Shown piece after piece: positions 13,409-64,000 of a DNA stretch of 64,000 nt. Positions within the stretch are counted from its first letter, which is position 1, and every line of letters starts with the position of its first letter. The stretch is from a virus, in IMG/VR virus record IMGVR_UViG_3300030202_001666, positions 1-64,000 of that record, one strand, 5' to 3'. The translations under genes and the position numbers were made by a program. The notes under the pieces are model-generated. The model made no database searches. It saw only the letters and a program-made list of their open reading frames with translations, and was not told the origin of the DNA.

Positions 13409-14884
13409 TTAATTCTGGAATAAGAAGAAGTTGTTTGCACCTAAAGTACATACAGCTCTCTCACTCAAGAAGTTTACTTCCATTGCATCAAGATCAGAAG
13501 TTCTTGCACCACCAGCAGAACCAGTAATCCAAGTTTTGTATCTTCTGTCTTCTGTTTCAGAAGCTCTATATCTAACGTGTAAGAATGGTCTCTTTGCGTT
13601 CTTACCTAAGATTTGGTCATAAACTGTAGTTGAACCAGCAGGAACTAAAAGTCCATTTACTGCACCACCTACAACATCACCTCTCATAGTAACATCGTTT
13701 AAGTATTTCCAATCTGACTTGTAGAAGTCATAACCTCTTCTGAATCCAGTGAATCCAAGATTTAAAGCCATTTCTTCATCATTGTCAAATAAACCATATG
13801 AAGTACCACCAGCTCCGTAAGAGTTTTGTGCTGCTAACATATCGTCAATATCAAATGAGAATTCTCTATTTACAAAAATAACATTTTCTTCAATAGAACC
13901 TTGCTTATCAAGTCTTTGGATAATGCTATCAAATTGAGATAATACTTGTGGGTTTCCACCGCCCCAAACATTTCCTCTTAATCCAACAACATAGAATATA
14001 CCATCTGAACCATTTAAGTTTGCAGCAGATAATCCAGCACCAACTCCTTGTAAGAAGTCTCCAGCACCAGAAGTTGCGTCTGCAGGTACTGCTTCAATCA
14101 TTGCAGTCTCAAGATAATCTTCAAATCTTAATCTTGTTTCATGCTCAGATTTTAAATACCATAGGTATCCAGATGCACCGTTCTCAGTAGTTACTTCAAC
14201 CCATCCAATTTGAGCCATATCAGAACCAGAAACAGAATACTTGTCTTTGATTATAATTGGCTTGTTATCGAAAATAAAGTCATCAGCTTCTAAAGAACCT
14301 ACCATTCCATTAGTTCCTTTGTTAAATTCAGAACCATATACAAAAATATCACAAGCTACACCAGCAGCTACTGCTTGTCCACCCGCTTCATAATAAGCGA
14401 TTGAAACTTGGTTTACACCTGTTCCAGCAACAGCGTCACTTGGACCAGCTATTACAATACCTTTGTTAGATAACGTTGATCCAGCAGTTTTGTCAGAAAT
14501 CATTACTGTTTGTCCTACTCTTAGAGCAGCAGTATTAGGAGTTCCAGCTAATGCAGGATTAAAGTTAGTAAGGTTGTTAGGTATAGTCCAAATTGCATTT
14601 CTTGTTGCAGCTCCAGCTCCAGCAGCAGATGTACAGTTTAGATATTTAGTATGTAATCTTCCTTGTTCTGCCCATTTGATAAGGTCAGAATTAGAAGGCA
14701 TTTCTGCTCCAACCATTCTTAGGAAGGAAGCAATTGTACGATTGCCATATCTCTCAAACTCTTTTTCATATGTATCAGGTAAGTACTGATTCAAGAAATC
14801 AAAGTCGTTGATATAATTTGTAGACAACGGTACTTGTTGGCTACTTGGTTGCAAATCAAAACCAGGGGTTACATTTACACTCAT
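13409..14884 (-). CDS. Major capsid protein (HK97-fold expected)
   Basis: 491 residues. The N-terminus (NDFDFLNQYLPDTYEKEFER, then YGNRTIASFLRMVGAE and LIKWAEQGRLHTKYL) and the long beta-rich body match major capsid proteins of crAss-like and flavobacterial podoviruses. The ending VNFLSERAVCTLGANNFFLF is compatible. It follows the acidic scaffold and portal genes in the standard order TerL-portal-scaffold-capsid. A GC hairpin follows its stop. The identification is strong from context plus sequence; the fold is inferred. Confidence 0.88.
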   Translation of the reverse strand: MSVNVTPGFDLQPSSQQVPLSTNYINDFDFLNQYLPDTYEKEFERYGNRTIASFLRMVGAEMPSNSDLIKWAEQGRLHTKYLNCTSAAGAGAATRNAIWTIPNNLTNFNPALAGTPNTAALRVGQTVMISDKTAGSTLSNKGIVIAGPSDAVAGTGVNQVSIAYYEAGGQAVAAGVACDIFVYGSEFNKGTNGMVGSLEADDFIFDNKPIIIKDKYSVSGSDMAQIGWVEVTTENGASGYLWYLKSEHETRLRFEDYLETAMIEAVPADATSGAGDFLQGVGAGLSAANLNGSDGIFYVVGLRGNVWGGGNPQVLSQFDSIIQRLDKQGSIEENVIFVNREFSFDIDDMLAAQNSYGAGGTSYGLFDNDEEMALNLGFTGFRRGYDFYKSDWKYLNDVTMRGDVVGGAVNGLLVPAGSTTVYDQILGKNAKRPFLHVRYRASETEDRRYKTWITGSAGGARTSDLDAMEVNFLSERAVCTLGANNFFLFQN

Positions 14885-21510: not shown

Positions 21511-22073
21511 AATACCATCGTTATATTATTAGTAAACATACGATACAAAACCTCATCATCTATTATAAACTCATATTCTGATTCTGGTTGAAAAGAAATA
21601 GTATCTCCAATTTTTAAACCTAAATCTTCTAATTGTTTATTTATATATTTTATTTCACCCATCAAAGGCTCTACGCTTCCTCCTTTTTTTAAAAAAGAAT
21701 CTTTCTTAGGAATAGGTTTTATAAAACAATATTTATCATATCCTCTCCATTCATCATCTCTTTTATATAAATAAAATTGATCTGGATCGATAAAAAATAA
21801 ATCTTCTCTAAAAAAACTTTTACCACTTTTTCTTCTACCATACATATCGTTATAAAATTTAAATACGTTATGGTGAACAACTAATGTATCTCCTTCTTTT
21901 ACTTCGCCTTTATAATTAATTGGCAATGATATAACTTTAGCAAATCTATTAGATGCTTTGTGGTTTTCTTCTGAAGTACTGGTAATAAAATCTATACCAC
22001 CTATTTTAGTTGTATTATTGTACCTTCTGTTATCCAAAGGTTTAACAATAAAAGAATAGGGAGACTGCATCAA
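21507..22073 (-). CDS. GroES-like co-chaperonin domain protein
   Basis: 188 residues. The N-terminal part follows the GroES pattern: SFIVKPLDNRRYNNTTKIGG, a glycine/serine-rich loop, RFAKVISLPINYKGEVKEGD, then TLVVHHNVFKFY. The later part adds about 90 residues with a second beta segment (IGDTISFQPESEYEFIIDDE). Known phage cases such as T4 gp31 replace GroES to fold the capsid protein. This one lies in the head-gene cluster and is separate from the short GroES next to GroEL. Start chosen at the ATG overlapping the 74-aa gene by 4 bases. Moderate certainty. Confidence 0.62.
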   Translation of the reverse strand: MMQSPYSFIVKPLDNRRYNNTTKIGGIDFITSTSEENHKASNRFAKVISLPINYKGEVKEGDTLVVHHNVFKFYNDMYGRRKSGKSFFREDLFFIDPDQFYLYKRDDEWRGYDKYCFIKPIPKKDSFLKKGGSVEPLMGEIKYINKQLEDLGLKIGDTISFQPESEYEFIIDDEVLYRMFTNNITMVL

Positions 22074-35764: not shown

Positions 35765-36082
35765 TTAGTTCCATCTGCCATCAAACTCTCTACGTTTTTG
35801 TCCACGTATAGAATCTAATTTTTTCTTATAGGCTCTTTTTTCTTTTCTTTTACGTAAAGCCTTTTTAATAATACTTTCCTTTTTCTTTTTCGGTTTAGTT
35901 TTTTTAGTAGTGCTTAACTTTTTAGGACCAAGACTTTTCATCTTAGCCATGCTCTTAACTTTTCCTGCACCAGAAGGTTTGGTTCTGGATTTGGATTTGC
36001 TTACTTTCTTTTTTCTACCTAAAGCATTAACCGAAACAAAAGTTTCGTTTTTCTTTAACAATTTATTTTTTCTGTCTGGCAT
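35765..36082 (-). CDS. Small Lys-rich protein (105 aa)
   Basis: MPDRKNKLLKKNETFVSVNA, then a low-complexity Lys/Ser/Thr stretch (KPSGAGKVKSMAKMKSLGPK, KKTKPKKKKESIIKKALRKR) and YKKKLDSIRGQKRREFDGRW. Histone-tail-like composition. One-base overlap with the 78-aa gene. Function unknown. Confidence 0.6.
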   Translation of the reverse strand: MPDRKNKLLKKNETFVSVNALGRKKKVSKSKSRTKPSGAGKVKSMAKMKSLGPKKLSTTKKTKPKKKKESIIKKALRKRKEKRAYKKKLDSIRGQKRREFDGRWN

Positions 36083-36318
36083 TAGTTTCTTCTTCTTCTT
36101 CTTCTTCCTCTTCCAGAAGATGGATTAACTGCACATCCTACAACCTTACGGCCTCTGTATATTCTGTTCTTACGAGAACAACCTCTTGCTTTGCCTTCAA
36201 GTTTTCTGGCTTTATCAAGTTTGCGTTCCATTTTTTTGATCTTACCTTTGCCTCTGGCCTTATTAGCTTGATCGTACTTTTTATCTGCTCTACGCATTAA
36301 CCTTTCGTATCTTGGCAT
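36082..36318 (-). CDS. Small Arg-rich protein (78 aa)
   Basis: MPRYERLMRRADKKYDQANK, then ARGKGKIKKMERKLDKARKL, EGKARGCSRKNRIYRGRK, and a C-terminal run of Arg (GRGRRRRRRN). The only protein of the array that is Arg- rather than Lys-dominated at its end, which resembles protamine. Two Cys. Function unknown. Confidence 0.6.
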   Translation of the reverse strand: MPRYERLMRRADKKYDQANKARGKGKIKKMERKLDKARKLEGKARGCSRKNRIYRGRKVVGCAVNPSSGRGRRRRRRN

Positions 36319-36324
36319 AATTTT

Positions 36325-36612
36325 TTATTTTTTTAGTTTTCTACTTGCTTTACTTATTTTTCTTTTAGCAGCAACTCTTTTTCTTGCCGCAGATTTATAA
36401 AGTCGATTAATTTCGGAAACCTTCTTTCTGTCAGAAACAGAAAGTCCTTTTAATTTTTTAGTTCGGAGCACCTCGTATTTTTTTGCACCAAGTTTCTTTT
36501 TAAGCTGTGAAGCTAATGTATTTCTTTTAATATCTTTTTTGTCAGCCTTCATAGATTTTCTACTTGCTGCGTTTAATTTACGAACTGCTTTTTTTGTTTT
36601 ATGTCCTGGCAT
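36325..36612 (-). CDS. Small basic helical protein (95 aa)
   Basis: MPGHKTKKAVRKLNAASRKS, MKADKKDIKRNTLASQLKKK, LGAKKYEVLRTKKLKGLSVS and a basic end. Helix-forming with regular Lys and Arg; looks like a nucleic-acid binding or ribosomal-protein-like fold but no family is recognised. One-base overlap with the 121-aa gene. Confidence 0.6.
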   Translation of the reverse strand: MPGHKTKKAVRKLNAASRKSMKADKKDIKRNTLASQLKKKLGAKKYEVLRTKKLKGLSVSDRKKVSEINRLYKSAARKRVAAKRKISKASRKLKK

Positions 36613-36977
36613 TATGATCTTTTTTTACGTTTTGGATAACTTCTTTTTGCTGTAACTGCTTTAGCTACATTCTGTATTCCTTTAGCTGCTTTACTTACAC
36701 TGCCTTTTTTAATTGCACTGTATGTAGACGCGGCTGCCGTGGCTATCTTGCCCAGCTTACTTCCTTTGATTCTGTCTACTTTCTTTTTAACTTTAGCGGC
36801 TGCTTTTTTAACTTTACCTACAGCTCTACCTGATCCTGTCTTGCCAGTCTTAATAATTTTACCAGCTCTTTTGGATAAACGTGCAGCTTTATTAGCTTTA
36901 CCTTTAACTGCTGCTTTTGTAGTTTTTTTTCTTAGTTTGCTTAACCTGCGTTTAGCGGCTTTTGTCATTGTCGGCAT
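36612..36977 (-). CDS. Histone H1-like basic protein (121 aa)
   Basis: MPTMTKAAKRRLSKLRKKTT, KAAVKGKANKAARLSKRAGK, then VGKVKKAAAKVKKKVDRIKG and AKAVTAKRSYPKRKKRS. The Ala/Lys repeats (KAAAK, KAVTAK) resemble H1 C-terminal domains and bacterial HctA/HctB-type condensers in composition only. Longest basic protein of the array. Function inferred as DNA binding. Confidence 0.6.
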   Translation of the reverse strand: MPTMTKAAKRRLSKLRKKTTKAAVKGKANKAARLSKRAGKIIKTGKTGSGRAVGKVKKAAAKVKKKVDRIKGSKLGKIATAAASTYSAIKKGSVSKAAKGIQNVAKAVTAKRSYPKRKKRS

Positions 36978-37136: not shown

Positions 37137-37601
37137 ATGAAATTTAAAGGCGTAACAAACCGATCAAGGACCTCACGCACAAAACCTAATCACGATTATT
37201 TAAAATACTGGCGTGTCATAAGGTACTGGGTAAAAGCTAAATACAAGTTAGGCACTCCAGAACTTGAAATGCTTTTGTTTCTATACAGTGAACAAATTTT
37301 TAATAAAAGCCAATTCAAACATTATGAAGAATTAATGTCTTGGGATATAAAAAGATTTAATTATTTACTAAAAGAAGATTGGATACATGTATGGAGAAAG
37401 CGTAAAGGAAATGAAACAACTTTATATGAATTAACGTATAAAGGAAAAAGAGTAATCAATACTATTTATAAAAAATTAAATGGTGAAGAGATTGCCGAGA
37501 CCTCAACAAATAATCCCCTATTTAGATTCGATGCTTCCTATATGGATAAAGTTTATAGGAATATGATTGTAGAAATGAATCAAGAAATCAAACAACAATA
37601 A
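37137..37601 (+). CDS. Winged-helix (MarR-like) DNA-binding protein, likely transcription regulator
   Basis: 154 residues. DYLKYWRVIRYWVKAKYKLG, TPELEMLLFLYSEQIFNKSQ (helical scaffold), a recognition-helix candidate WDIKRFNYLLKEDWIHVWRK, and a wing RKGNETTLYELTYKGKRVIN (about residues 85-105). The family recurs in Bacteroidota phages in my recollection. It is the only forward gene inside the reverse late block and has its own promoter box. Its 3' end overlaps the GroES gene by 14 bases in the opposite direction, so the two transcripts interfere. Possible late-gene regulator. Confidence 0.7.
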   Translation: MKFKGVTNRSRTSRTKPNHDYLKYWRVIRYWVKAKYKLGTPELEMLLFLYSEQIFNKSQFKHYEELMSWDIKRFNYLLKEDWIHVWRKRKGNETTLYELTYKGKRVINTIYKKLNGEEIAETSTNNPLFRFDASYMDKVYRNMIVEMNQEIKQQ

Positions 37602-37845
37602 CTACGTTTCTTTCTTCTATTATTGTAAATGTTTCATCTTCTATTAGCATAGAATGTCCAGATGATTTGTCATAGTAAATAGTGTCACCTTCTTTAATTA
37701 CTTCAACTCTATTACCTGGATTAATTACTTTACCCTTGTGGTATCTAAAAGATTCAACATCTGCACTGGATAATAAAAGTCCAGAATCCGTTTTGTACTC
37801 TTCGTTTATTTTTTTAATTACTATGTATTTACCTATTGCCTGCAT
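37588..37845 (-). CDS. groES: Co-chaperonin GroES
   Basis: 85 residues, slightly shorter than the usual 95-100. GroES pattern: MQAIGKYIVIKKINEEYKTD (first strand), SGLLLSSADVESFRYHKGKV (mobile loop at about 20-30 with hydrophobic LLL), INPGNRVEVIKEGDTIYYDK and MLIEDETFTIIEERNVVIVV. It would cap a GroEL ring at the mobile loop. Lies three genes downstream of the phage groEL. The 3' end overlaps the forward wHTH gene. Family assignment strong. Confidence 0.82.
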   Translation of the reverse strand: MQAIGKYIVIKKINEEYKTDSGLLLSSADVESFRYHKGKVINPGNRVEVIKEGDTIYYDKSSGHSMLIEDETFTIIEERNVVIVV

Positions 37846-38035
37846 GTCTTCTATCTAATTCTTTTTTTATAACTGATTTTTTTCTTTTATAAGATGGGTT
37901 AGTATAATATTTTTCCAGTTCTTCTGTAGATGTACTGGCAATAGTATAATGTTTCCATCTCCACTTCTGCATCATCCTACCATTTGCATCTCTTTGGTAT
38001 TCTTTAGTGCTTGGCTTTAATTTAGGAGACGACAT
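37829..38035 (-). CDS. Small basic conserved phage protein
   Basis: 68 residues: MSSPKLKPSTKEYQRDANGR, MMQKWRWKHYTIASTSTEEL, then YYTNPSYKRKKSVIKKELDR. A KLKP.TKEY.RD.....KW.WKHY...STSTEEL.....NPSYKRKK pattern common in Bacteroidota phages as I recall. Overlaps GroES start by 17 bases and the 42-aa gene by 14. Function unknown. Confidence 0.65.
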   Translation of the reverse strand: MSSPKLKPSTKEYQRDANGRMMQKWRWKHYTIASTSTEELEKYYTNPSYKRKKSVIKKELDRRHAGNR

Positions 38036-38150
38036 TTTTTTCTTTGTATTTAATTATTCTATATCCTCTGGACTCTAAATACTTTATGTACTCATCTTCT
38101 TTTTCTTTTTCTTTTCTGAAAGAACAAAATATTTCATTGTAAATTGGCAT
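38022..38150 (-). CDS. Small charged protein (42 aa)
   Basis: ATG at 38148-38150 to TAA at 38022-38024: MPIYNEIFCSFRKEKEKEDE, YIKYLESRGYRIIKYKEKN. It lies 5 bases after GroEL and overlaps the next start, so it is in the operon. Looks like a short helix plus strand. Not recognised. Confidence 0.5.
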   Translation of the reverse strand: MPIYNEIFCSFRKEKEKEDEYIKYLESRGYRIIKYKEKNVVS

Positions 38151-38155
38151 AACTT

Positions 38156-39781
38156 TTATTTTTTAGTTTCTTCTCTATTTCCAATACGTGCATGTGTAAC
38201 AATTGCGTTAGTGCTTAGTATTGTTGTTGCTACAGAAACTGCATTAATAAGTGCATTCTTTGTAACCTTTAATGGATCAATGATTCCCATTTTGAACATA
38301 TCTCCATACTCTTCGTTCTTAACATCATAACCGTAGTTCTTTGTTCCGTAAGGACCTACGCCTAAATTTAATGTTACTGACTCAATATCTTTTCCTGCAT
38401 TAATTAATATTTGGTGCAGTGGTGATCTTATTGCTTCACATATTATATCTACTGCTGCATTGTAATCTTCATTGTCTGATCTATCTGCATCTAAGTCAAC
38501 AGCTATTTTCCATAATGCTAATCCACCCCCAGGTATTATACCTTCTTCAAGAGCTGAACGAACAGCACACACCGAGTCATCGACTCGGTCAAATTTTTCT
38601 TTTTGTTCAACGTCAGAGTTTCCACCTACATATATACAACCGATAGCTCCAGCTAAACTTGCTATTCTTTGATTTATAAATTCAATCTCTGCTGGTCCAG
38701 TACAATTACTTTGGTATTCCTTCAGTTCTTGAATACGATTATCAATCTCTTCAGTTAGTGCAGCGTGTTTGATAATAACAGATGAGTTCTTTCCTACTAT
38801 TATTTTATCTGCGTATCCAAGATCAGATGGTTGTATTAAACTTAAATCGTCCCCAGTTTTTTCTGAATAGTATTTTGCTCCAACAGATATTGCAATGTCT
38901 TGCATTAGTTCATGTTGTTTATATCCGAAGTTAGGAGGGATGATGTTACACAACTTTAATCCGTTTCGCATAACATTCGCGGCTAAAGTATTTATAACAT
39001 TAGTGGAACACGTTCCAATAATTAATAGCTTTTGGTTTTTTTGAATGATTGGTTTTAAAACATTTTCGATTTGTAGTATGTTACTAATCTCAGTATCACA
39101 AACTAATACTTTCACATCTTCCAATATACATTCGTCTTTACGTTGGTTATTTATAAATAGGTTTGAAGTGTAACCTCTATCAATTCTAATTCCGTTTGTT
39201 ACTTCCGCGTATGTCTCGGCATTCATAGATTTTTCTACAGTAACAATTCCACTATGACCAACACGGTTGTATGCATCAGAAATAATCTTACCAATTTCTT
39301 TATCACCGTTGGCAGATATAGAAGCAACATCTAATAGTCGAGACTTAGTAATCTTCTTTGATTGTTTTTTTAATTTCGCTAATACTTCCTGGGTTAATTT
39401 ATTTATATGTTTTATAACTTCAGTAACATTATGTTTTGGTTTTAAAATTTTATCCCCAGCTTTAATAATGTTTTCAGTTAACACAATTGCAGTAGTCGTT
39501 CCATCACCCGCAACATTGGCAGTACGAAGTGCTGCATCCTTCATCATTTGGATTGCTAAGTTTTCTACGGCATCATCTAAGTATACCGAGTGTGCAACTG
39601 TGACTCCGTCTTTAGTAATTGTTATTCCCGCTAAGTGATCTGTGGATTCTATTAGTACAGTTTTCCCGCGTGGGCCGAGTGTACTCTTTACGGCTTTAGA
39701 AATTTTAGAGATTCCTGAAATTAATTTTTCTCGCCCTTCCTTACCGAAGTCGAGATTCTTTGGTATATATCCTTGTGACAT
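38156..39781 (-). CDS. groEL: Chaperonin GroEL
   Basis: 541 residues, full length for GroEL. Nucleotide site: TLGPRGK (34-40), TKDG (56-59, equivalent to E. coli D52), AGDGTTTA (91-98, D87 equivalent) and RVDDSVCAVRSALEEGIIPG (D398 equivalent present). GroES/substrate-binding apical segment: RGYTSNLFIN where E. coli has RGYLSPYFIN, so one of the aromatic contact residues is replaced by Leu. The C-terminal GGM tail is missing; it ends HARIGNREETKK. Active ATPase expected. Has its own TATATTTG promoter. Few phages carry a full GroEL. Confidence 0.95.
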   Translation of the reverse strand: MSQGYIPKNLDFGKEGREKLISGISKISKAVKSTLGPRGKTVLIESTDHLAGITITKDGVTVAHSVYLDDAVENLAIQMMKDAALRTANVAGDGTTTAIVLTENIIKAGDKILKPKHNVTEVIKHINKLTQEVLAKLKKQSKKITKSRLLDVASISANGDKEIGKIISDAYNRVGHSGIVTVEKSMNAETYAEVTNGIRIDRGYTSNLFINNQRKDECILEDVKVLVCDTEISNILQIENVLKPIIQKNQKLLIIGTCSTNVINTLAANVMRNGLKLCNIIPPNFGYKQHELMQDIAISVGAKYYSEKTGDDLSLIQPSDLGYADKIIVGKNSSVIIKHAALTEEIDNRIQELKEYQSNCTGPAEIEFINQRIASLAGAIGCIYVGGNSDVEQKEKFDRVDDSVCAVRSALEEGIIPGGGLALWKIAVDLDADRSDNEDYNAAVDIICEAIRSPLHQILINAGKDIESVTLNLGVGPYGTKNYGYDVKNEEYGDMFKMGIIDPLKVTKNALINAVSVATTILSTNAIVTHARIGNREETKK

Positions 39782-39810: not shown

Positions 39811-39818
39811 CAAATATA
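39811..39818 (-). promoter_or_regulatory. Candidate promoter -7 box for groEL (TATATTTG)
   Basis: Minus-strand TATATTTG in the groEL leader, 29 bases before its ATG, matching TAnnTTTG. It sits downstream of a terminator (40038-40067), which isolates it from the gene above. No TTG -33 seen. Confidence 0.45.
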
Positions 39819-55514: not shown

Positions 55515-55776
55515 TTAGTAATTTTGCAACCGTTTTTGAATCTCTAAGTTCTTTACAGATTTCATACTGCTCTACTGAATTAAAATACTCTATCAAAATA
55601 TCATATACATCATCCTCCATTGGAATATATTTTCTGGTAGGATTAAAAATAAAAGCACAACCTAAATCTTTTTCAAGTAGTTCTTCATGAGACGATTTAC
55701 CTGTCAACACTAAATAGCTATTATACATACAAGTGTACTCATCAAAATCTTCTATGTCGTAACTCTTCATTTTCAT
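55495..55776 (-). CDS. Hypothetical protein at the end of the late transcript
   Basis: 93 residues: MKMKSYDIEDFDEYTCMYNS, then YLVLTGKSSHEELLEKDLGC and EQYEICKELRDSKTVAKLLI. Starts with a 4-base overlap of the giant gene stop, so it is translated after it. Convergent with the early block. Function unknown. Confidence 0.62.
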   Translation of the reverse strand: MKMKSYDIEDFDEYTCMYNSYLVLTGKSSHEELLEKDLGCAFIFNPTRKYIPMEDDVYDILIEYFNSVEQYEICKELRDSKTVAKLLINFQSF

Positions 55777-58700
55777 TGGTTAAAATAATATTCATCCATT
55801 TCTTTTCTGTACTCTCTTTCTAATCTTTCCTGTTCCTCTTCAGCTTCTCTTATTTCATCTGCGTACTCTAATTCATACTGTTGCTCTTCTCTAAGCATTT
55901 GATCATACTCTTCCGGGAAGTATCTCTGTAATTCTCTTCTGGTTAAGTTAGGTGATTTTGGTTTCTTAGTTCTTTGTTGAGGTCCTGATTGTATATAGTC
56001 ACTGAAACTAAATAGTTTTAGTATAGCATCACCCATATCCTCTGGACCTTCTGCTAATGCCATATAGTTGTCAAGTAATCTTTTTAGTTGAGGTCCTGGT
56101 ATACCAGTTAAGGTTGTTAGTTCTAAATAAAATCTTGTTGTATACTCTTGTTTTTTAATAGGATCTTTTGTTTTATTAGCTTGACTATACAATCTACTCA
56201 TATTTGCAGCTTGTTCAATCACTGGTAAACTTGAAGGAGTTGCCGCCCAATATTTACCAGTTGCAGTATCTTTTGCAATATTTAATAAATCACCAATAAT
56301 AAATAATGCATTTAAGTTACCCATAAAACCAGCTAAGACTAACTCTTCTTTATCATCATCTCTTCTGTCTCTAAGTAAACCTGGAGCACCTAAACTTACA
56401 TATCTAAATAAGGTTGGCATAATAAAGTGATAAACCATAAGTGTTCTTAAATTTTGCCAATATGTTCCTTTACCTTGTTTATTTCCACTTCTCAGTTTTC
56501 TGTAAAAATTACGTGCAGCAATTATCTCTCTTCTTAAATACTGTTTAGGAGTTGTTAAGAACATATTAAATGCTCTTTGGTATACATTTCCAGTTTGGAA
56601 ATAATCCTTGTCTTGTAAATCGTAAGACTGCTGAGTTCTTAAAGTATCTTGCTCAAATCTTTTTATTGCATAATCAATTGCATCTTGTTCCGTAGCGTTT
56701 TCATTTTCCGATAAGTATTGAGCTTTATAAAATCTATAATTAGGTAAACCTCCTAACATAATAGCACCTTTATCACCAAGCATCGTGAATGACATTAGAG
56801 TATTTACAAATTGATTTTGCACTTCTCTATTAAAAACTTTTTGCACAATATTATTTTGTGCATCCATTTCTTTGAAATTTCTATCTTGATATGTCTCAAT
56901 CACACGTGTGATAGGTTTGCCGTATCTATCTTGTAACACGACAGAATTATCCATTATTTCTCTTAAGTCAGCTTTCCATTCTGTTGGATTCATAGCTGCA
57001 TACTTAATCCAGTTATCATATCCAATATCATTTCCATATGTAACAAAGGAAGTCATCTGTTTTAATATAAGAGTTGGATTAAAACCTAACCTTGAAAGTA
57101 AGAATGTATTGTTGAAGAAGTTAATAAATCCTGCGTCTTTTTGATTTTTAGCACCTTTGTTTGCAATCTTAGTTATCTGATCGTTTATATATTTATTTAT
57201 ATTGTTACCAAATCTTTCTGCAATAACTTCTTTAACTGCCGAATCACTAAATACTTTATTGATATCTCTGATAGGAATAGCATAAGCAGCAAAGTATTCC
57301 ATATCCCTGGTGTAATTTAACAATGCATCCACAGCATTTGTTTGTCTTATCGGTGAAATGTTTTCTTGTCTGAATTTTGTACTGGCTGCACTTACATTAG
57401 TAATCCAAGTTTTATTTTCAGAAGAAGCTAATAAATCCACACCAGTAATATCTTCGCCATCTCTATATAATCTACCTGCATAGTATTGATTCCACGGCAT
57501 GTCGGCTCTGTAAACTTTTTGATATGTTTTATTATAATGCTCGTACTGAGCTGGGTAGAATTCTTGTACCATCCAATCACCTAATGTCACTAACTTATCA
57601 TCCAACTTTTCTTCTAACTCAGCTTTAATTCTTGAAGCATATTCTCCTTTGTTGCCGAACTTATTATCTTTTGTTTTTTTAAACTCTTGATTTAAGTAAG
57701 CCAATACACCACTAAAATTAGTAGGCTCGAAGGTAGCTTCAAAAGAACCTTCTAATGACGGATCAAGCCCTTGGTTTCTAAAATATAATATTTCGTTTTG
57801 CGATAACATTTTAGTATTCTCATTCATCTCTTTATATATCGCATTAAGTAAAACTTCTTTTTCTCCAGACTCCATAGTCTTATCAGCCTTTACTCTGGCT
57901 TCTTCTTTTTCTAAAATATCTTGCTTGGCTTGACTGATAACAATAGCTTCAGTAACATTACTGTTTCTTCTATTGAATTTAGTCCATCTCTTTCCGTAAA
58001 GTTCAGTCATCTTCATACTGAACCCTAATTCATGTCTTAACATTCTACCTTTGTAAATTCTTGAAGCCTTTCTTATTTCATTTGATACCATCTCTTGCGA
58101 AAATCCTCCAAATAATTCCCCAGTTGATAAGGATATTCTGTCCATTAAACCAGCTAAATCTTCTGCCGATCCAAACACATATCTTTCAGCAGCTTTGATA
58201 TTTTCTTTTACTCCAAGTGCTAATCTTTTTGTTACACTAATAGGTTTTATTTTACCTCTTGTAGCGTCTATTTTAATTTTATTTTTTAACTCTCTAAATT
58301 TTGCCAGAATATCACCTTGGGTAATATTTGTTACACCTTCATCTTTTAGTTCTTGTTCTGGATCAATAGACACACCCATTTCTTTTAACATTTTTAGTGT
58401 GTTGTTCATATACTTGGTGGAGTCTCTTAAAAGTTCTAACTGTAAACCAGTTATACCCATTGACTGAAGTTGCGATAAGCCAAATAAAATTTGTTCATAT
58501 GCATTTGTTTTCTTCCCATTGTTTTGTTCCATGGATAAAGTGTTGTTGTAAGCAACTGCCATTCCTAAATCTGCCACTTCTTGTGCTTCTTCTGGTGTCA
58601 ATGTTCTATTGACTTCAGTTTTTACACCACCTATACTTATGGTTTCTTTTTCTAAAGCCTCAATCTTAGCTAATAGTTTTGAATTGACTTCGTCTATTTC

Positions 58701-61700
58701 GTTTTGACTAATCTCTTTTGGTAACTGTATTGTTCCTTTTCTTCCTTTCTTACCAGGCACATAACCTATTATATTTTCCTGAATAGAATTAATTCTATCT
58801 TTAATTGCTTTAGTAATACTTGTTCCTTTTAATCTACCAGATTGTACAGTCTCGTAACTTCTATTTAATATATCTAATATATTATTATTCAATTGTTTAT
58901 TAGTAATTGTAGTTGCTACATCTGTAACCTCCTTAACAACTGCTTCAAAATTTTCTTCAGTGACCGCATTGATTTTATCTATCAGTGCAATGACTTGGCT
59001 TTTTGTGTAAAGTTCTCTTGGTATAACACTTCGAATATATTGTCTAAGTTTTCTTTGAATTCTTTTACCTTCTTTTTGACTCCACTTCATCTCTCTGATA
59101 TTCTTATTTAAATTTAAAATACGTTGTCCATTTCTGGCAGATGTATCTGGAGATAAATAATTAAGCAAATCTACTTCAAGTGCTTGTTGTTGTGCAGTCT
59201 TTCTTGAGCCCTTTGTTCCTAAGTTTTTATACTCTGGAGTAGTGTACATAAACTCTATAGTTTCATTGACTAAATCCTCATTACTTTTTTTATTTTTTCT
59301 TTTTCTATTGTTAGCTTTTACCAACTTCTTATAGTGATCATTCAATTTATTTATAAATGCTACACCTTTTTTTAAACCACCTTCTACGTTTGCAAAACTT
59401 TTAGGAAATATATTAAACAAATCAGTGTCAAACTTCAATGCGTCTGCAATTTCTTTAGCCTTGAATCCTCTTCTTCTTAAATAATATTTTATAGCAGAGT
59501 CTTTGAAACCAGCTTCTCTTCCTCTCATTACAATATCCATTGCTTCATTTTCTGCATCCATCTTTTGGAATTTACCTCTTCTTGATGGATCTTTAGGCTT
59601 CAACATTCCACCTCTTGGTTTCAATACATATACACCGCCACCTTGTCCGTACTGATTTACTTTTGCTCTCTTAACTTTATAACCAGGAGATATAGCATCA
59701 AACTCTTTCTGTAAGTATCTCATATCAGCAAACTTACTATAGAACCCATTGACATCCATTTGTGTTTGTTCTAAGAGCTGATCTATTGTTTTTTGTTCTT
59801 TACCCTTTCTTGTTTCGGTTTGTGGCTTAGACTTCTTCTTTTGACTTTCTATGTTTCTTATACCACTACCGTATGGAGCTATAACTTGTGATGCTTGAGC
59901 ACCCATTAATACTTTTCCATACTTAGCTTTCATTGATGCAGGTAGTAAAAAGTATGCGTTCACTAATTTATTTGGAACACCAACTACCTCACCTAATATA
60001 TCATTTGTATATGTTGAATGATTAGATTGTTGACCTGCTCCTGTTGGTTTTAGAACCAACATAATATCATTCATTTTAAAATTATTGTCTTTGTAGAAAC
60101 CGTCACGTAAAGATTCTAAATCTACAAAAGCATCTGAGTCTTTAAGTAATTTATGTAGTTCAGTGTTAGGTGTTTGCTCTGAAGCAACAATACCAGCTAA
60201 GAATTGTTTTCTAACTTTGTTTGATTTTGCATTTCTTATTGCATCCCAACTATCATACTTAGCTAAAGTTTCTCTAATAACTTTGAGTGGAGGTTTAGCA
60301 AAGTTGCTTACACTATTTTTAAATTCTTCAAAACTTCCTAACTTAGAAATAAATAAATCATAAACTTTTTTATTAGCTAACTTACTTGCAGTAGGCGAAC
60401 CACTCACTATAAATATATAGTCAGCTTCTTCTGAGTTCTTTGCTAATGCAGACTCACTCATACCACTTGCCCAAATAATATTCTTTTGTTGATGTTCTGG
60501 AACAAAAGCATAGCTTGGTCCTCCATCTATTGAGACTCCATCTACTGTTCCTATGCCTAACTGATCAGCCATCCAGAACCATACCTTTTGTTTTTTCTTA
60601 GCTATGTCTTCAATTAAAGCATCGATATCTAATTCACTTGCTGGAGTAATTAATGAATTAGAATATGTTCCATCGAAACTAACCTTTTGTTCTTTACCTT
60701 CTTTTCTTTCATCAACTATTGTAGTTGGATTACCGATCGGTGATGTCCCCATCTCATCCATTTCAGCATTTATATCTTCAATTATTTGAACATCTTCTTG
60801 TAATATCTCTTCACCTCTTCTTAGTTTTCCAGCTACTGTATTTAAGAAATCTATTACTGCTTCATCTGATTTACTAAGTTGTTCAGAGAATGGACTTGGT
60901 ACTCCAATTCTATTTAAGAATCTATTGATTAAATCAATTACTTTATTTTTAGTTGGCTTTGTTAACGTCTTATATTCAGAAGCTAATATTCCAAACAGTT
61001 CTGAAACTGCTTCTTCGTTTTGCTCTTCGCTTTCATACTGTTGAGTAAAAGAATTTATTCTTTGTTGTAAGTTTCCTTCCTTTGGAAGTACTTTATTTAA
61101 ACTAACTAACATTCTACCAAACACTTTATTTGCTGCGGCATCAGTCTTTATTAACTGATTAGCCATTGCGTGTACAGCCTCATGAAAAGGAGTAGACTTA
61201 GAAGCTGTTTGCATGTTTATATGTATGGTTTCCGTATCTGGATTAAAATAACCACGTCCCTCTTTACCTGTGGTTTTTTTAAATAACTCTGAGTTATCAT
61301 GAATTACTATTCTAACTTTAGGAAATAATTTATTTATTGCACTTGCAGCTTTCTTTGCGTTTTTAATTATTGTAGTTTGCAAATTAGCATCCACATCGGA
61401 TACTTGCTTTCCTTTATTTCTACTTATGTTAGGGGAAATAATTTCATTAGTGTCTTGCGTTTCATCAAAGAAGGCATCTATATCTTCTTTGGTTTCTTGA
61501 CTTACTTCCTCTTGCGTTTCATCCTGGACTTCAGGTGACTCGGTTTGCGTGTCGATCCCTTCCGTACTTTGTTGGGAAGATTCAGATTCGGATACGCTTT
61601 CTCCCACCTGGCTGCCACTTTCGGTAGATTCTTGTGCATCCACTTTCGTTGTGCTTGACTTTTGAAGGGCATCTTGTTTTATTTTAATTTGTTCTGGGGT

Positions 61701-64000
61701 GGGATTTTCCACACCCTCTTTTTTAAGCTCATTTATTGCATCCTCTTCGGTTACCATTTGTGGTATACCTTCTTGCTCTCTTTTTAGGTTAGCTTGGTTC
61801 TGAGCTTGTTTACTTCCAATCTCACCTAATTGCATTTTAATTATCTCTAACTCTGTTTGTTTTTCTTTATAAGAACCAAGGTCCTTATCCATCCCATCCA
61901 TTTCAGTTTCTAATCTTTTCTTTCTAAAGATTAACTGAAGAGCTTCTTTCTTTTGAGATTTACTCAAATCAGTAGCCATATCTAAATCCATAGAAGCTGA
62001 ACGTAAAACATTAAATTGTTCTAATTTACTTTTAGCTTCTGCCTTACTCATTTCACCTTGAGCTACTGCTAAATCTAATTTAGTTTTGTAACCCTCGACA
62101 AATGTGTCGTCATTCTTCATTGAGTCAAACAACTCTATCATTTCATCATCGATGATTATAGAATTATCTTTTCCATAAATACCATTAATTATACCACCAG
62201 GAGTTGCTAAAGCAAAACCACCTACTGCTTCGGCAGCAGCAGCGTGTCCTAATTGTTTGAAATATTCAGCAGACCAACGATCTGGATTCTTAAACATCTC
62301 TTTACCTTTAATGGCGTTGTAAATATTTTTTCCTTCTATATCTGTAAGTTCTTGCAAGAATCCAGTCTCAGCTTCGGCAAGAGCCGCGGGTACAACAGCA
62401 CTACCAAATCTATAAACACCAGACTGTCCAACTGCTCTTGTCATTTTATTGTCCATTATATTTACTACAGCTCTTCTAAACATCGCTGGAGTTGCTCCTT
62501 TAGGTAGTTTAGCTAATGCTTGTGTAGTAATACTTTGAATGAACTGCGTACCAGATGTTCCAGAAAGTAAATTTCTAAAACCTAAAGTTTCTAAGATACC
62601 AGATGTTATTGCTAATGGTAATACTATTGCTTTCTTTTCTCCTTCAGTTACCCATTCAAACTCTGGATTAGCTTCCATTTGTTCGTTAAGTTTATCTGCA
62701 TGTAGTAAAGACATTGCTATTAAAGATGATTGGCGGTATCCGTCTGTAGCCCAGTTCTTAATTGACTGACCTATTCTTTGAAACATCTTTTTGTCTTTAT
62801 TAGAAACCTTGACCTTGCCTTTTCTTTTTATTGCTTGATATATCATAGGTATCAAAGCTGGAAGGGATTCAGCAGCTCCATAAAGTCCAGTAGCTATAAT
62901 ACTGTCATCCATTTGTGCTTGTATACGTTCTTCGCTAACGCCAGCGCCAATTAAGTTTTGTAAACGATCCCTTGACTTAGATTTTAAATCTTTTTTTCTT
63001 GCTTTTATTTTTTGATCTCCTACTAAAGAATCTATTTCTTCAAAAACATTTAACGCACCAAATACCCTTGGAGCATCTACCCAACCATCTTCTTCTATAC
63101 TCCACACTTGTGGTTCATTGTATTTTACTCTTGGTTGATCTATTCCTAATATAGAAGACGAGCCATAATCATACCTAACACCTTTACTTATATCATAAAC
63201 ACCTTTAGGAAGTTTACTTAAACGTGTATCATTTTTTGATACCACATGTCTATCAAATATATTGCCTTGTAATTGATTTTCTAAAGCATATTTTTGGGCT
63301 TCTTCCATTGTAGTAAAAACAAAATCACCTTCTTCTTCTCTACTTTTTTTTCTTTCTTCTTTTATTTTTAAAGTTTCTAACCATTGTGCAAATCCCTCTT
63401 CACTTTCTTTAGCATAATCTGGAACATCAATTCCTTTATAACCTTCATAAACTCTGATAAACTCAAGTCTATATTCTTCATCAGTCATACCGTAATCATT
63501 ACCAGAAAAACCTTGAGCCAGTTTGTAAAAAGCCTCTATTCCTGTTCCTCCTAAAGTGCTTATAGCAGAATCAAAATATCCTATAAACTTATCATACATA
63601 CCACCAACAAAAGTACCTACTGCTGTTCCTTCATTTTGTTTGAAACGAAGATGGTTTCCCACTGCAATATCTACATCTTTAGCGTTGTCAGAAAAAGTTT
63701 TATACTCATCAGTTAGTTTATTCTCAAGTTGTTTTAAATATCTACCCTCTTCAATCTCAGCTTGGTATGCTGCTTGAAATTCTGGATCATCATAATAACT
63801 CGAAGGAGCATTAGAAAACTTTAACATATTTTGTTCGTGCTTTTGTTTACGTTCAAAAAATGCTTTTTGTCTTCTGACTAAATCGGCAGAGCTTTTTCTA
63901 ATTAAATTAATATCATTGATACGTGCTTGAGAACTAAAGTATTTTTTTTTAGAAGCATCGTATTGTTCTGACATCCTCTGCATGATAGAAGAGTCTTGGT
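55773..64000 (-). CDS. Giant polyvalent / ejection protein (T7 gp16-like place), open at right edge
   Basis: At least 2736 residues from the ATG at 63981-63983, but the frame is open to base 64000, so the true start is beyond the window. Seen: N-terminal helical region; hydrophobic IVLPLAITSGILETLGFRNL (about 450-470); acidic Ser/Glu-rich linker (about 790-850); zincin motif STPFHEAVHAMANQ (H934, E935, H938); a region near 1100-1350 with KVWFWMADQLGIG and a NHSTY segment; long Lys-rich helices; hydrophobic C-terminal part (LRTLMVYHFIMPTLFRYVSL) and an acidic coil end. Such multi-domain proteins are injected with DNA. T7 gp16-like place and the left-edge gene suggest they are one protein. Confidence 0.85.
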   Translation of the reverse strand, partial: QDSSIMQRMSEQYDASKKKYFSSQARINDINLIRKSSADLVRRQKAFFERKQKHEQNMLKFSNAPSSYYDDPEFQAAYQAEIEEGRYLKQLENKLTDEYKTFSDNAKDVDIAVGNHLRFKQNEGTAVGTFVGGMYDKFIGYFDSAISTLGGTGIEAFYKLAQGFSGNDYGMTDEEYRLEFIRVYEGYKGIDVPDYAKESEEGFAQWLETLKIKEERKKSREEEGDFVFTTMEEAQKYALENQLQGNIFDRHVVSKNDTRLSKLPKGVYDISKGVRYDYGSSSILGIDQPRVKYNEPQVWSIEEDGWVDAPRVFGALNVFEEIDSLVGDQKIKARKKDLKSKSRDRLQNLIGAGVSEERIQAQMDDSIIATGLYGAAESLPALIPMIYQAIKRKGKVKVSNKDKKMFQRIGQSIKNWATDGYRQSSLIAMSLLHADKLNEQMEANPEFEWVTEGEKKAIVLPLAITSGILETLGFRNLLSGTSGTQFIQSITTQALAKLPKGATPAMFRRAVVNIMDNKMTRAVGQSGVYRFGSAVVPAALAEAETGFLQELTDIEGKNIYNAIKGKEMFKNPDRWSAEYFKQLGHAAAAEAVGGFALATPGGIINGIYGKDNSIIIDDEMIELFDSMKNDDTFVEGYKTKLDLAVAQGEMSKAEAKSKLEQFNVLRSASMDLDMATDLSKSQKKEALQLIFRKKRLETEMDGMDKDLGSYKEKQTELEIIKMQLGEIGSKQAQNQANLKREQEGIPQMVTEEDAINELKKEGVENPTPEQIKIKQDALQKSSTTKVDAQESTESGSQVGESVSESESSQQSTEGIDTQTESPEVQDETQEEVSQETKEDIDAFFDETQDTNEIISPNISRNKGKQVSDVDANLQTTIIKNAKKAASAINKLFPKVRIVIHDNSELFKKTTGKEGRGYFNPDTETIHINMQTASKSTPFHEAVHAMANQLIKTDAAANKVFGRMLVSLNKVLPKEGNLQQRINSFTQQYESEEQNEEAVSELFGILASEYKTLTKPTKNKVIDLINRFLNRIGVPSPFSEQLSKSDEAVIDFLNTVAGKLRRGEEILQEDVQIIEDINAEMDEMGTSPIGNPTTIVDERKEGKEQKVSFDGTYSNSLITPASELDIDALIEDIAKKKQKVWFWMADQLGIGTVDGVSIDGGPSYAFVPEHQQKNIIWASGMSESALAKNSEEADYIFIVSGSPTASKLANKKVYDLFISKLGSFEEFKNSVSNFAKPPLKVIRETLAKYDSWDAIRNAKSNKVRKQFLAGIVASEQTPNTELHKLLKDSDAFVDLESLRDGFYKDNNFKMNDIMLVLKPTGAGQQSNHSTYTNDILGEVVGVPNKLVNAYFLLPASMKAKYGKVLMGAQASQVIAPYGSGIRNIESQKKKSKPQTETRKGKEQKTIDQLLEQTQMDVNGFYSKFADMRYLQKEFDAISPGYKVKRAKVNQYGQGGGVYVLKPRGGMLKPKDPSRRGKFQKMDAENEAMDIVMRGREAGFKDSAIKYYLRRRGFKAKEIADALKFDTDLFNIFPKSFANVEGGLKKGVAFINKLNDHYKKLVKANNRKRKNKKSNEDLVNETIEFMYTTPEYKNLGTKGSRKTAQQQALEVDLLNYLSPDTSARNGQRILNLNKNIREMKWSQKEGKRIQRKLRQYIRSVIPRELYTKSQVIALIDKINAVTEENFEAVVKEVTDVATTITNKQLNNNILDILNRSYETVQSGRLKGTSITKAIKDRINSIQENIIGYVPGKKGRKGTIQLPKEISQNEIDEVNSKLLAKIEALEKETISIGGVKTEVNRTLTPEEAQEVADLGMAVAYNNTLSMEQNNGKKTNAYEQILFGLSQLQSMGITGLQLELLRDSTKYMNNTLKMLKEMGVSIDPEQELKDEGVTNITQGDILAKFRELKNKIKIDATRGKIKPISVTKRLALGVKENIKAAERYVFGSAEDLAGLMDRISLSTGELFGGFSQEMVSNEIRKASRIYKGRMLRHELGFSMKMTELYGKRWTKFNRRNSNVTEAIVISQAKQDILEKEEARVKADKTMESGEKEVLLNAIYKEMNENTKMLSQNEILYFRNQGLDPSLEGSFEATFEPTNFSGVLAYLNQEFKKTKDNKFGNKGEYASRIKAELEEKLDDKLVTLGDWMVQEFYPAQYEHYNKTYQKVYRADMPWNQYYAGRLYRDGEDITGVDLLASSENKTWITNVSAASTKFRQENISPIRQTNAVDALLNYTRDMEYFAAYAIPIRDINKVFSDSAVKEVIAERFGNNINKYINDQITKIANKGAKNQKDAGFINFFNNTFLLSRLGFNPTLILKQMTSFVTYGNDIGYDNWIKYAAMNPTEWKADLREIMDNSVVLQDRYGKPITRVIETYQDRNFKEMDAQNNIVQKVFNREVQNQFVNTLMSFTMLGDKGAIMLGGLPNYRFYKAQYLSENENATEQDAIDYAIKRFEQDTLRTQQSYDLQDKDYFQTGNVYQRAFNMFLTTPKQYLRREIIAARNFYRKLRSGNKQGKGTYWQNLRTLMVYHFIMPTLFRYVSLGAPGLLRDRRDDDKEELVLAGFMGNLNALFIIGDLLNIAKDTATGKYWAATPSSLPVIEQAANMSRLYSQANKTKDPIKKQEYTTRFYLELTTLTGIPGPQLKRLLDNYMALAEGPEDMGDAILKLFSFSDYIQSGPQQRTKKPKSPNLTRRELQRYFPEEYDQMLREEQQYELEYADEIREAEEEQERLEREYRKEMDEYYFNQ

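Follow-up and report, generated by a model that had tools for sequence, protein, structure and literature searches.

Phage groEL and groES genes and a predicted double-length co-chaperonin in a clade of podovirus-like phages

The window analyzed here, i.e. positions 1-64000 of a 64,392-base IMG/VR virus record, encodes groEL, groES and a second, double-length co-chaperonin, three conserved genes that are under purifying selection as judged from sequence comparison (dN/dS about 0.1 for GroEL versus L004 and less than 0.1 for both co-chaperonins). From the presence and conservation of these genes, the residue changes in their products and the predicted folds, we consider it rather probable that the phage possesses a self-contained folding system for its late virion proteins, probably with a single-ring GroEL and a weak-binding lid. 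The double-length lid gene and the apparent loss of ring-ring contacts are less expected than the groEL/groES pair itself.

The chaperonin genes and their phage

GroEL, the only Cpn60 of the record, matches Cpn60_TCP1 (PF00118) with 205.6 bits over profile positions 1-487 of 490, and is assigned to phrog_5725 in PHROGs (460.7 bits, E 1.3e-137). The catalytic set is present, namely D52 (TKDG), D87 (AGDGTTTA), the D398 equivalent (RVDD), G32, P33, T89-91, G414-416 and D495, and it is invariant in 58 non-redundant relatives except for the second glycine of GGG (52/58). Clade members also retain the interdomain positions D155-R395 and R197-E386(D). This protein, a group I chaperonin subunit, has the full-length Cpn60 architecture and the ATPase residues (D52, D87, T89-91, D398 and G32) of that group. 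The GGM repeat is absent and the C-terminus reads HARIGNREETKK; a GGM tail is common in GroEL and inessential for group I membership. For GroES, the Cpn10 match (PF00166) reaches 43.9 bits against a cut-off of 21.1, and PHROGs also places it in the groES family. The first-pass annotation had described a 541-aa GroEL with intact nucleotide-site residues but no GGM tail, and an 85-aa GroES, forming a complete phage-owned pair in the late block. All of this is borne out, the two genes heading a minus-strand block that contains virion genes. Between them lie short frames of doubtful standing, and in relatives the groEL-groES gap varies from an overlap up to 490 bases.

Features of the chaperonin loci in the window
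Feature	Position	Strand	Basis
Second co-chaperonin, predicted Cpn20-like tandem GroES fold, 187-188 aa	21507..22073	-	phrog_13932, AF2
Basic Lys/Arg-rich proteins	36612-36977, 36325-36612, 36082-36318, 35765-36082	-	sequence composition
groES, 85-aa single-domain co-chaperonin, short roof segment, SGLLLS mobile loop	37588..37845	-	Pfam PF00166, AF2
GroES mobile loop KTDSGLLLS, residues 18-26	37768..37794	-	clade conservation
groEL, 541-aa group I chaperonin subunit	38156..39781	-	Pfam PF00118, PHROGs
Equatorial segment, GroEL residues 456-468, degenerate R452/E461/S463/V464 contacts (H, D, E, S here)	38378..38416	-	alignment
Apical helices H and I, GroEL residues 234-272; L234E, V263A, V264A equivalents	38966..39082	-	alignment
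YTSNLF, GroEL residues 204-209, equivalent of E. coli YLSPYF; Y203 to L, P202 to N	39155..39172	-	alignment
TATATTTG, Bacteroidota-type -7 promoter box of groEL	39811..39818	-	TAnnTTTG conservation upstream of groEL

The terminase, portal and capsid-region genes, the last encoding a protein at 13409-14884, have matches in 85-89 phage records, nearly all of them from phages of Flavobacterium, Cellulophaga, Maribacter or Tenacibaculum, and the nearest record by these genes is MW202828.1 (ctfjg026). The window belongs to a large clade of podovirus-like phages of about 60 kb; the named relatives have flavobacterial hosts. The window phage is marine and probably has a flavobacterial host, too. The 37137-37601 gene (plus strand), convergent with the end of groES, shows a weak PHROG match to a transcriptional regulator; a gene at the same place in MW202828.1 is annotated as a repressor. 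From groES to the virion genes, a series of small, strongly basic Lys/Arg-rich proteins is encoded at 35765-36977 (minus strand), which are perhaps DNA-condensing. A 2736-aa frame at 55773-63983 (minus strand) has no PHROGs match at E 0.001.

The promoter box proposed earlier for groEL also gained support. TATATTTG ends 29 nt 5' of the start codon. Of 62 distinct upstream regions from relatives, 59 carry TAnnTTTG, the Bacteroidota -7 box, no more than 100 nt ahead of groEL, while random 100-nt stretches of these loci contain it in 8% of cases. In the examples listed for relatives, it lies 27-40 nt from groEL. We accept the box on its conservation upstream of groEL alone and not on window-wide counts, which are near chance (114 matches versus 104 expected); a sigma-70 scan of the groEL/groES region gave nothing better than shuffles. 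Such a box is in keeping with the flavobacteria that the named relatives infect.

GroEL surfaces and the two co-chaperonins

The apical groove was compared, in E. coli numbering, between 58 non-redundant clade members and 77 cellular GroELs. The first-pass annotation had reported SNLF in place of SPYF and saw in it a hint at a specialized client or partner. The alignment confirms this replacement, Y203 being changed in 58/58 (L in 47 and M in 11, versus Y in all 77 cellular sequences) and P202 to N in 36/58, and the change is larger than noted. Position 234 is E in every clade member, versus L66/V6/I3/M2 in cells, and the helix H segment is ungapped, so that L234E is no alignment slip. V263 and V264 are each replaced by A in 57/58 (V in 77/77 and 75/77 cellular GroELs, respectively), and E238 to K, A241 to I and E257 to N are each found in 57/58. 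Cellular GroELs are near-invariant at most of these changed positions. Other groove positions are kept in the clade: Y199 (Y54/W4), F204, L237 and V or I at 259. The groove residues, as listed in PMC7289027, contact both substrate and GroES. That the replacements are fixed in the clade points to an altered partner rather than to drift. L234E and V263A/V264A could weaken GroES binding until the lid goes unused.

A second altered surface, overlooked in the first-pass annotation, is the ring-ring interface. At the eight positions considered (105, 108, 109, 434, 452, 461, 463 and 464), the mean clade entropy is 2.80. Control columns of like cellular entropy average 0.97 (sd 0.30), and in 20,000 draws of such columns the value was never reached; the outcome was the same when the controls were limited to polar or to equatorial columns. 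Among 520 columns, R452 shows the largest excess of entropy, with 14 different residues in the clade and none but R in the 77 cellular GroELs. A possible salt-bridge pair of R/K452 with D/E461 is present in 11/58 clade members versus 77/77 in cells, and a hydrophobic residue at 464, Ala included, in 0/58 versus 77/77. This is a strong hint, not proof, that the bacterial ring-ring contacts have lost constraint, the controls being matched on entropy and not on surface exposure. Because R452 is hypervariable and position 464 never hydrophobic, we predict that the window GroEL probably acts as a single ring; a double ring held through contacts other than the known ones is also compatible with these losses. 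Four of the eight sites are mutated in the engineered single-ring GroEL, a variant with which GroES I25L or I25F reportedly functions in E. coli (PMC5575113).

The mobile loop is among the most conserved stretches of clade GroES. In 64 non-redundant clade loops its tripeptide is LLL (49), ILL (11), LIL (3) or LVL (1), hence starting with L in 53 of them, versus I in most cells. An L-first loop would agree with a weaker lid suited to a single ring. The AF2 model (pLDDT 89.1) has GroES/Cpn10 as best PDB matches (Z 11.6), and the protein combines a Cpn10 domain (Pfam 43.9 bits) with a hydrophobic mobile-loop tripeptide (SGLLLS). T4 gp31 was considered as the nearest co-chaperonin fold and rejected, its match being poorer (Z 8.8). 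The roof segment is 7-8 residues by pattern, whereas cells mostly have 12 or 17. A gp31-like loss of the roof is only moderate, as Bacteroidota GroES is already short.

The second co-chaperonin gene was missed in the first-pass annotation. It is a 188-aa frame with its first ATG at 22070, separated from the terminase by two small genes, and PHROGs assigns it to co-chaperonin GroES (phrog_13932, E 6.8e-24); it has no Pfam match. Relatives occur in 405 IMG/VR stretches and 85 phage records, and our profile A3 detects the gene in 18 of the 20 records searched, window included. The AF2 model (pLDDT 80.4) resembles best, over model residues 1-187, the PDB chain 7ekq_R, Chlamydomonas Cpn20 (Z 10.5, 157 residues), versus Z of at most 8.3 for single-domain GroES, and the BFVD model of phi18:3 cpn10 concurs with a tandem fold (TM 0.81). 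Profile comparison recognizes the C-terminal half as GroES (97%) but gives the N-terminal half a probability of just 16-26%. The N-terminal GroES-like domain went undetected in Pfam and profile searches and is suggested only by the predicted fold. A PDB sequence search with profile A3 gave no matches. The GroES-like gene near the terminase in crAss cr111_1 is short and does not match profile A3. The part of the literature searched yielded no report of a phage tandem co-chaperonin.

The mobile-loop sequences of the tandem protein are degenerate in the window's clade. The Pachyviridae phi13:2 (L174) and phi19:3 (L176) encode a small GroES and a long tandem protein but no GroEL, and in phi13:2 the C-terminal half of the tandem protein scores as Cpn10 (E 2.8e-8), with loop-like motifs in both halves (KTESGLEL and SLIYIPEDNREK). 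The loops look canonical in both phages, which is expected if binding to host GroEL is required. Canonical loops in GroEL-free phages, and degenerate ones where the phage has its own GroEL, may thus form a pattern, drawn from few lineages. The gene content of the two phages suggests that related families either went through a stage with GroES alone or lost GroEL.

Distribution, origin and likeness to known systems

Phage GroEL had been described at first as uncommon and the pair as rarer still. This view is not supported, given the 271 records with GroEL relatives in one phage collection, at least 424 IMG/VR stretches encoding them, and pairs already annotated in Elemovirus (adjacent genes; 68 records with a GroES match) and in Cellulophaga phi38:1 (Callevirus, one gene between the two). 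At least two of the 271 records, labeled Acinetobacter phage, are bacterial chromosome. One of them, L088 (CAKLQH020000021.1, "Acinetobacter phage MD-2021a"), has groS-groL amid pckG, dgkA and acrB genes and is a bacterial chromosome contig filed as phage. Of the 80 nearest IMG/VR loci, 79 have groES downstream of groEL; the remaining one is truncated within groEL. To avoid selection by GroEL itself, long contigs were also taken via the portal or second co-chaperonin gene: all 13 contigs of at least 56 kb encode GroEL, as does one of four contigs of 50-54 kb, the other three of which may be fragments. Both genes have been reported in Maribacter phage Panino (PMC11590407), and Nishimura et al. 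counted 36 marine Bacteroidetes phage genomes with GroEL (PMC5332604). That some phages have both GroEL and GroES is also stated in PMC7185714, which cites Marine et al. 2017. The phage groEL/groES pair is therefore a known and widespread kind, annotated or reported in the cultured Elemovirus, phi38:1 and Panino as well as in MW202828.1, and not a new one.

Elemovirus, Callevirus (phi38:1) and Panino are podovirus-like flavophages that have groEL and groES together, as in the window; their portal, terminase and capsid-region genes are homologous to those of the window, and Elemovirus and phi38:1 also have a GroES-domain gene near the terminase. Their GroELs are about 36-38% identical to that of the window and have their own groove residues, Elemovirus keeping L234. 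MW202828.1 (Podoviridae sp. ctfjg026, Manatee Spring) belongs to the window's clade (GroEL 54%, portal 69% and terminase 72% identity) on a more distant branch, with the same groEL-groES-convergent regulator order and the tandem gene annotated as hypothetical. The giant phages EL, OBP and AR9 also encode GroEL-like proteins. Those of OBP and AR9 are single rings (PMC9598537), that of EL forms ATP-sensitive double rings (PMC7185714), and all three function without a co-chaperonin. Unlike them, the window GroEL has an ordinary group I score, an adjacent GroES gene and a second co-chaperonin. T4 gp31 is a phage co-chaperonin without roof loops that is required for folding of the capsid protein (PMC6318259); it works with host GroEL, and the window GroES is closer to cellular GroES. 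Chloroplast Cpn20 has two GroES-like domains head to tail, in a system that also contains single-domain Cpn10 (PMC5780408), but its identity with the phage tandem protein is only about 13%, and the N-terminal domain of the latter is unrecognizable by sequence. Mitochondrial Hsp60-Hsp10, co-chaperonin-dependent and with active single-ring forms (PMC7174398), differs from the window GroEL in origin and groove residues.

In the careful tree, the GroELs of the window and its relatives form one phage clade with support 100/100 on a stem of 1.84 changes per column. The first-pass annotation had named a phage clade distinct from hosts as support and tight clustering inside one host species as the finding that would speak against it; the former is seen and the latter is not. 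The best 80 cellular matches listed, from genome contigs, are 36-39% identical to the window GroEL. The phage clade has the order groEL-groES, while groES comes before groEL in the cellular loci examined. Recent acquisition of the groE operon from a host, or mis-assembly of bacterial sequence into the phage contig, has precedents elsewhere, i.e. the GroEL of SJC03, which nests in Bacteroidales, and the chromosome contig labeled Acinetobacter phage; the GroEL of pv27 joins E. coli. Nothing found here favors such an event, and the single clade, the identity of at most 39% to the cellular GroELs found and the gene order make it so improbable that we regard it as ruled out. By sequence, the window pair is a long-diverged phage version. 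In a quick tree the Elemovirus and phi38:1 GroELs join the window's clade; long branches meet there, and we therefore claim no common origin.

Proposed mechanism and alternatives

The phage encodes a group I chaperonin system of its own, which has been passed down within the large podovirus-like clade. GroEL would be made once the late block switches on, as a heptamer acting as a single ring, and late virion proteins, most likely the capsid protein and other large structural proteins, would bind in a groove re-patterned for a narrower client set. The lid would bind through its LLL mobile loop, and less tightly than usual, because a tight lid on a ring that has no partner ring would lock the cycle. 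It may be a mixed ring, e.g. three double-length subunits and one single-length subunit giving seven domains, for which the chloroplast co-chaperonins provide a precedent. The outcome would be a folding chamber independent of host GroEL.

A conventional double-ring GroEL/GroES with a drifted surface, host-like and adding folding capacity during the burst, would account for the intact ATPase residues, the coverage of the whole Cpn60 profile and the normal predicted fold of GroES. We judge it unlikely, as the ring-ring positions are less constrained far beyond matched columns and the fixed groove substitutions are not simple drift. Less likely again, the phage GroEL could mix with or poison host GroEL, as a means of host takeover and without folding virion proteins. 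The re-patterned groove and the conserved interdomain positions could permit mixed rings, but the identity to cellular GroEL is low (at most 39% among the matches listed), and every near-complete contig checked has the gene, together with its own GroES, at the start of the late block. As for the 188-aa protein, it is possible, if not our preferred reading, that it is a head-morphogenesis or packaging protein with an incidental GroES-like barrel. Its gene lies near the terminase and portal, a position kept in phages of several families, and its mobile-loop sequences are degenerate in the window's clade; against this stand the Cpn10-scoring C-terminal half and the loop-like motifs in both halves of the protein of GroEL-less phi13:2.

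We propose only tentatively the complete combination, i.e. a single-ring group I chaperonin with a chloroplast-like mixed single/tandem GroES lid and a virion-specialized groove in a common marine phage lineage. If true, this chaperonin architecture would be one so far undescribed in viruses. The clade, which is deep and well sampled, illustrates what a chaperonin with probably few clients retains and loses, with the ATPase kept, the groove rewired, the ring-ring contacts released and the double lid retained. It could also show, in a natural setting, if one ring closed by a weak lid is enough for GroES-dependent folding, which has so far been studied in E. coli mutants and mitochondrial Hsp60. 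The isolated relatives, Elemovirus, phi38:1 and Panino, make the general question testable. The GroEL of one relative is expressed, as phi38:1 GroEL peptides were detected in infected cells; the protein was found in methylated form both there and in the free-virion sample (PMC13288928).
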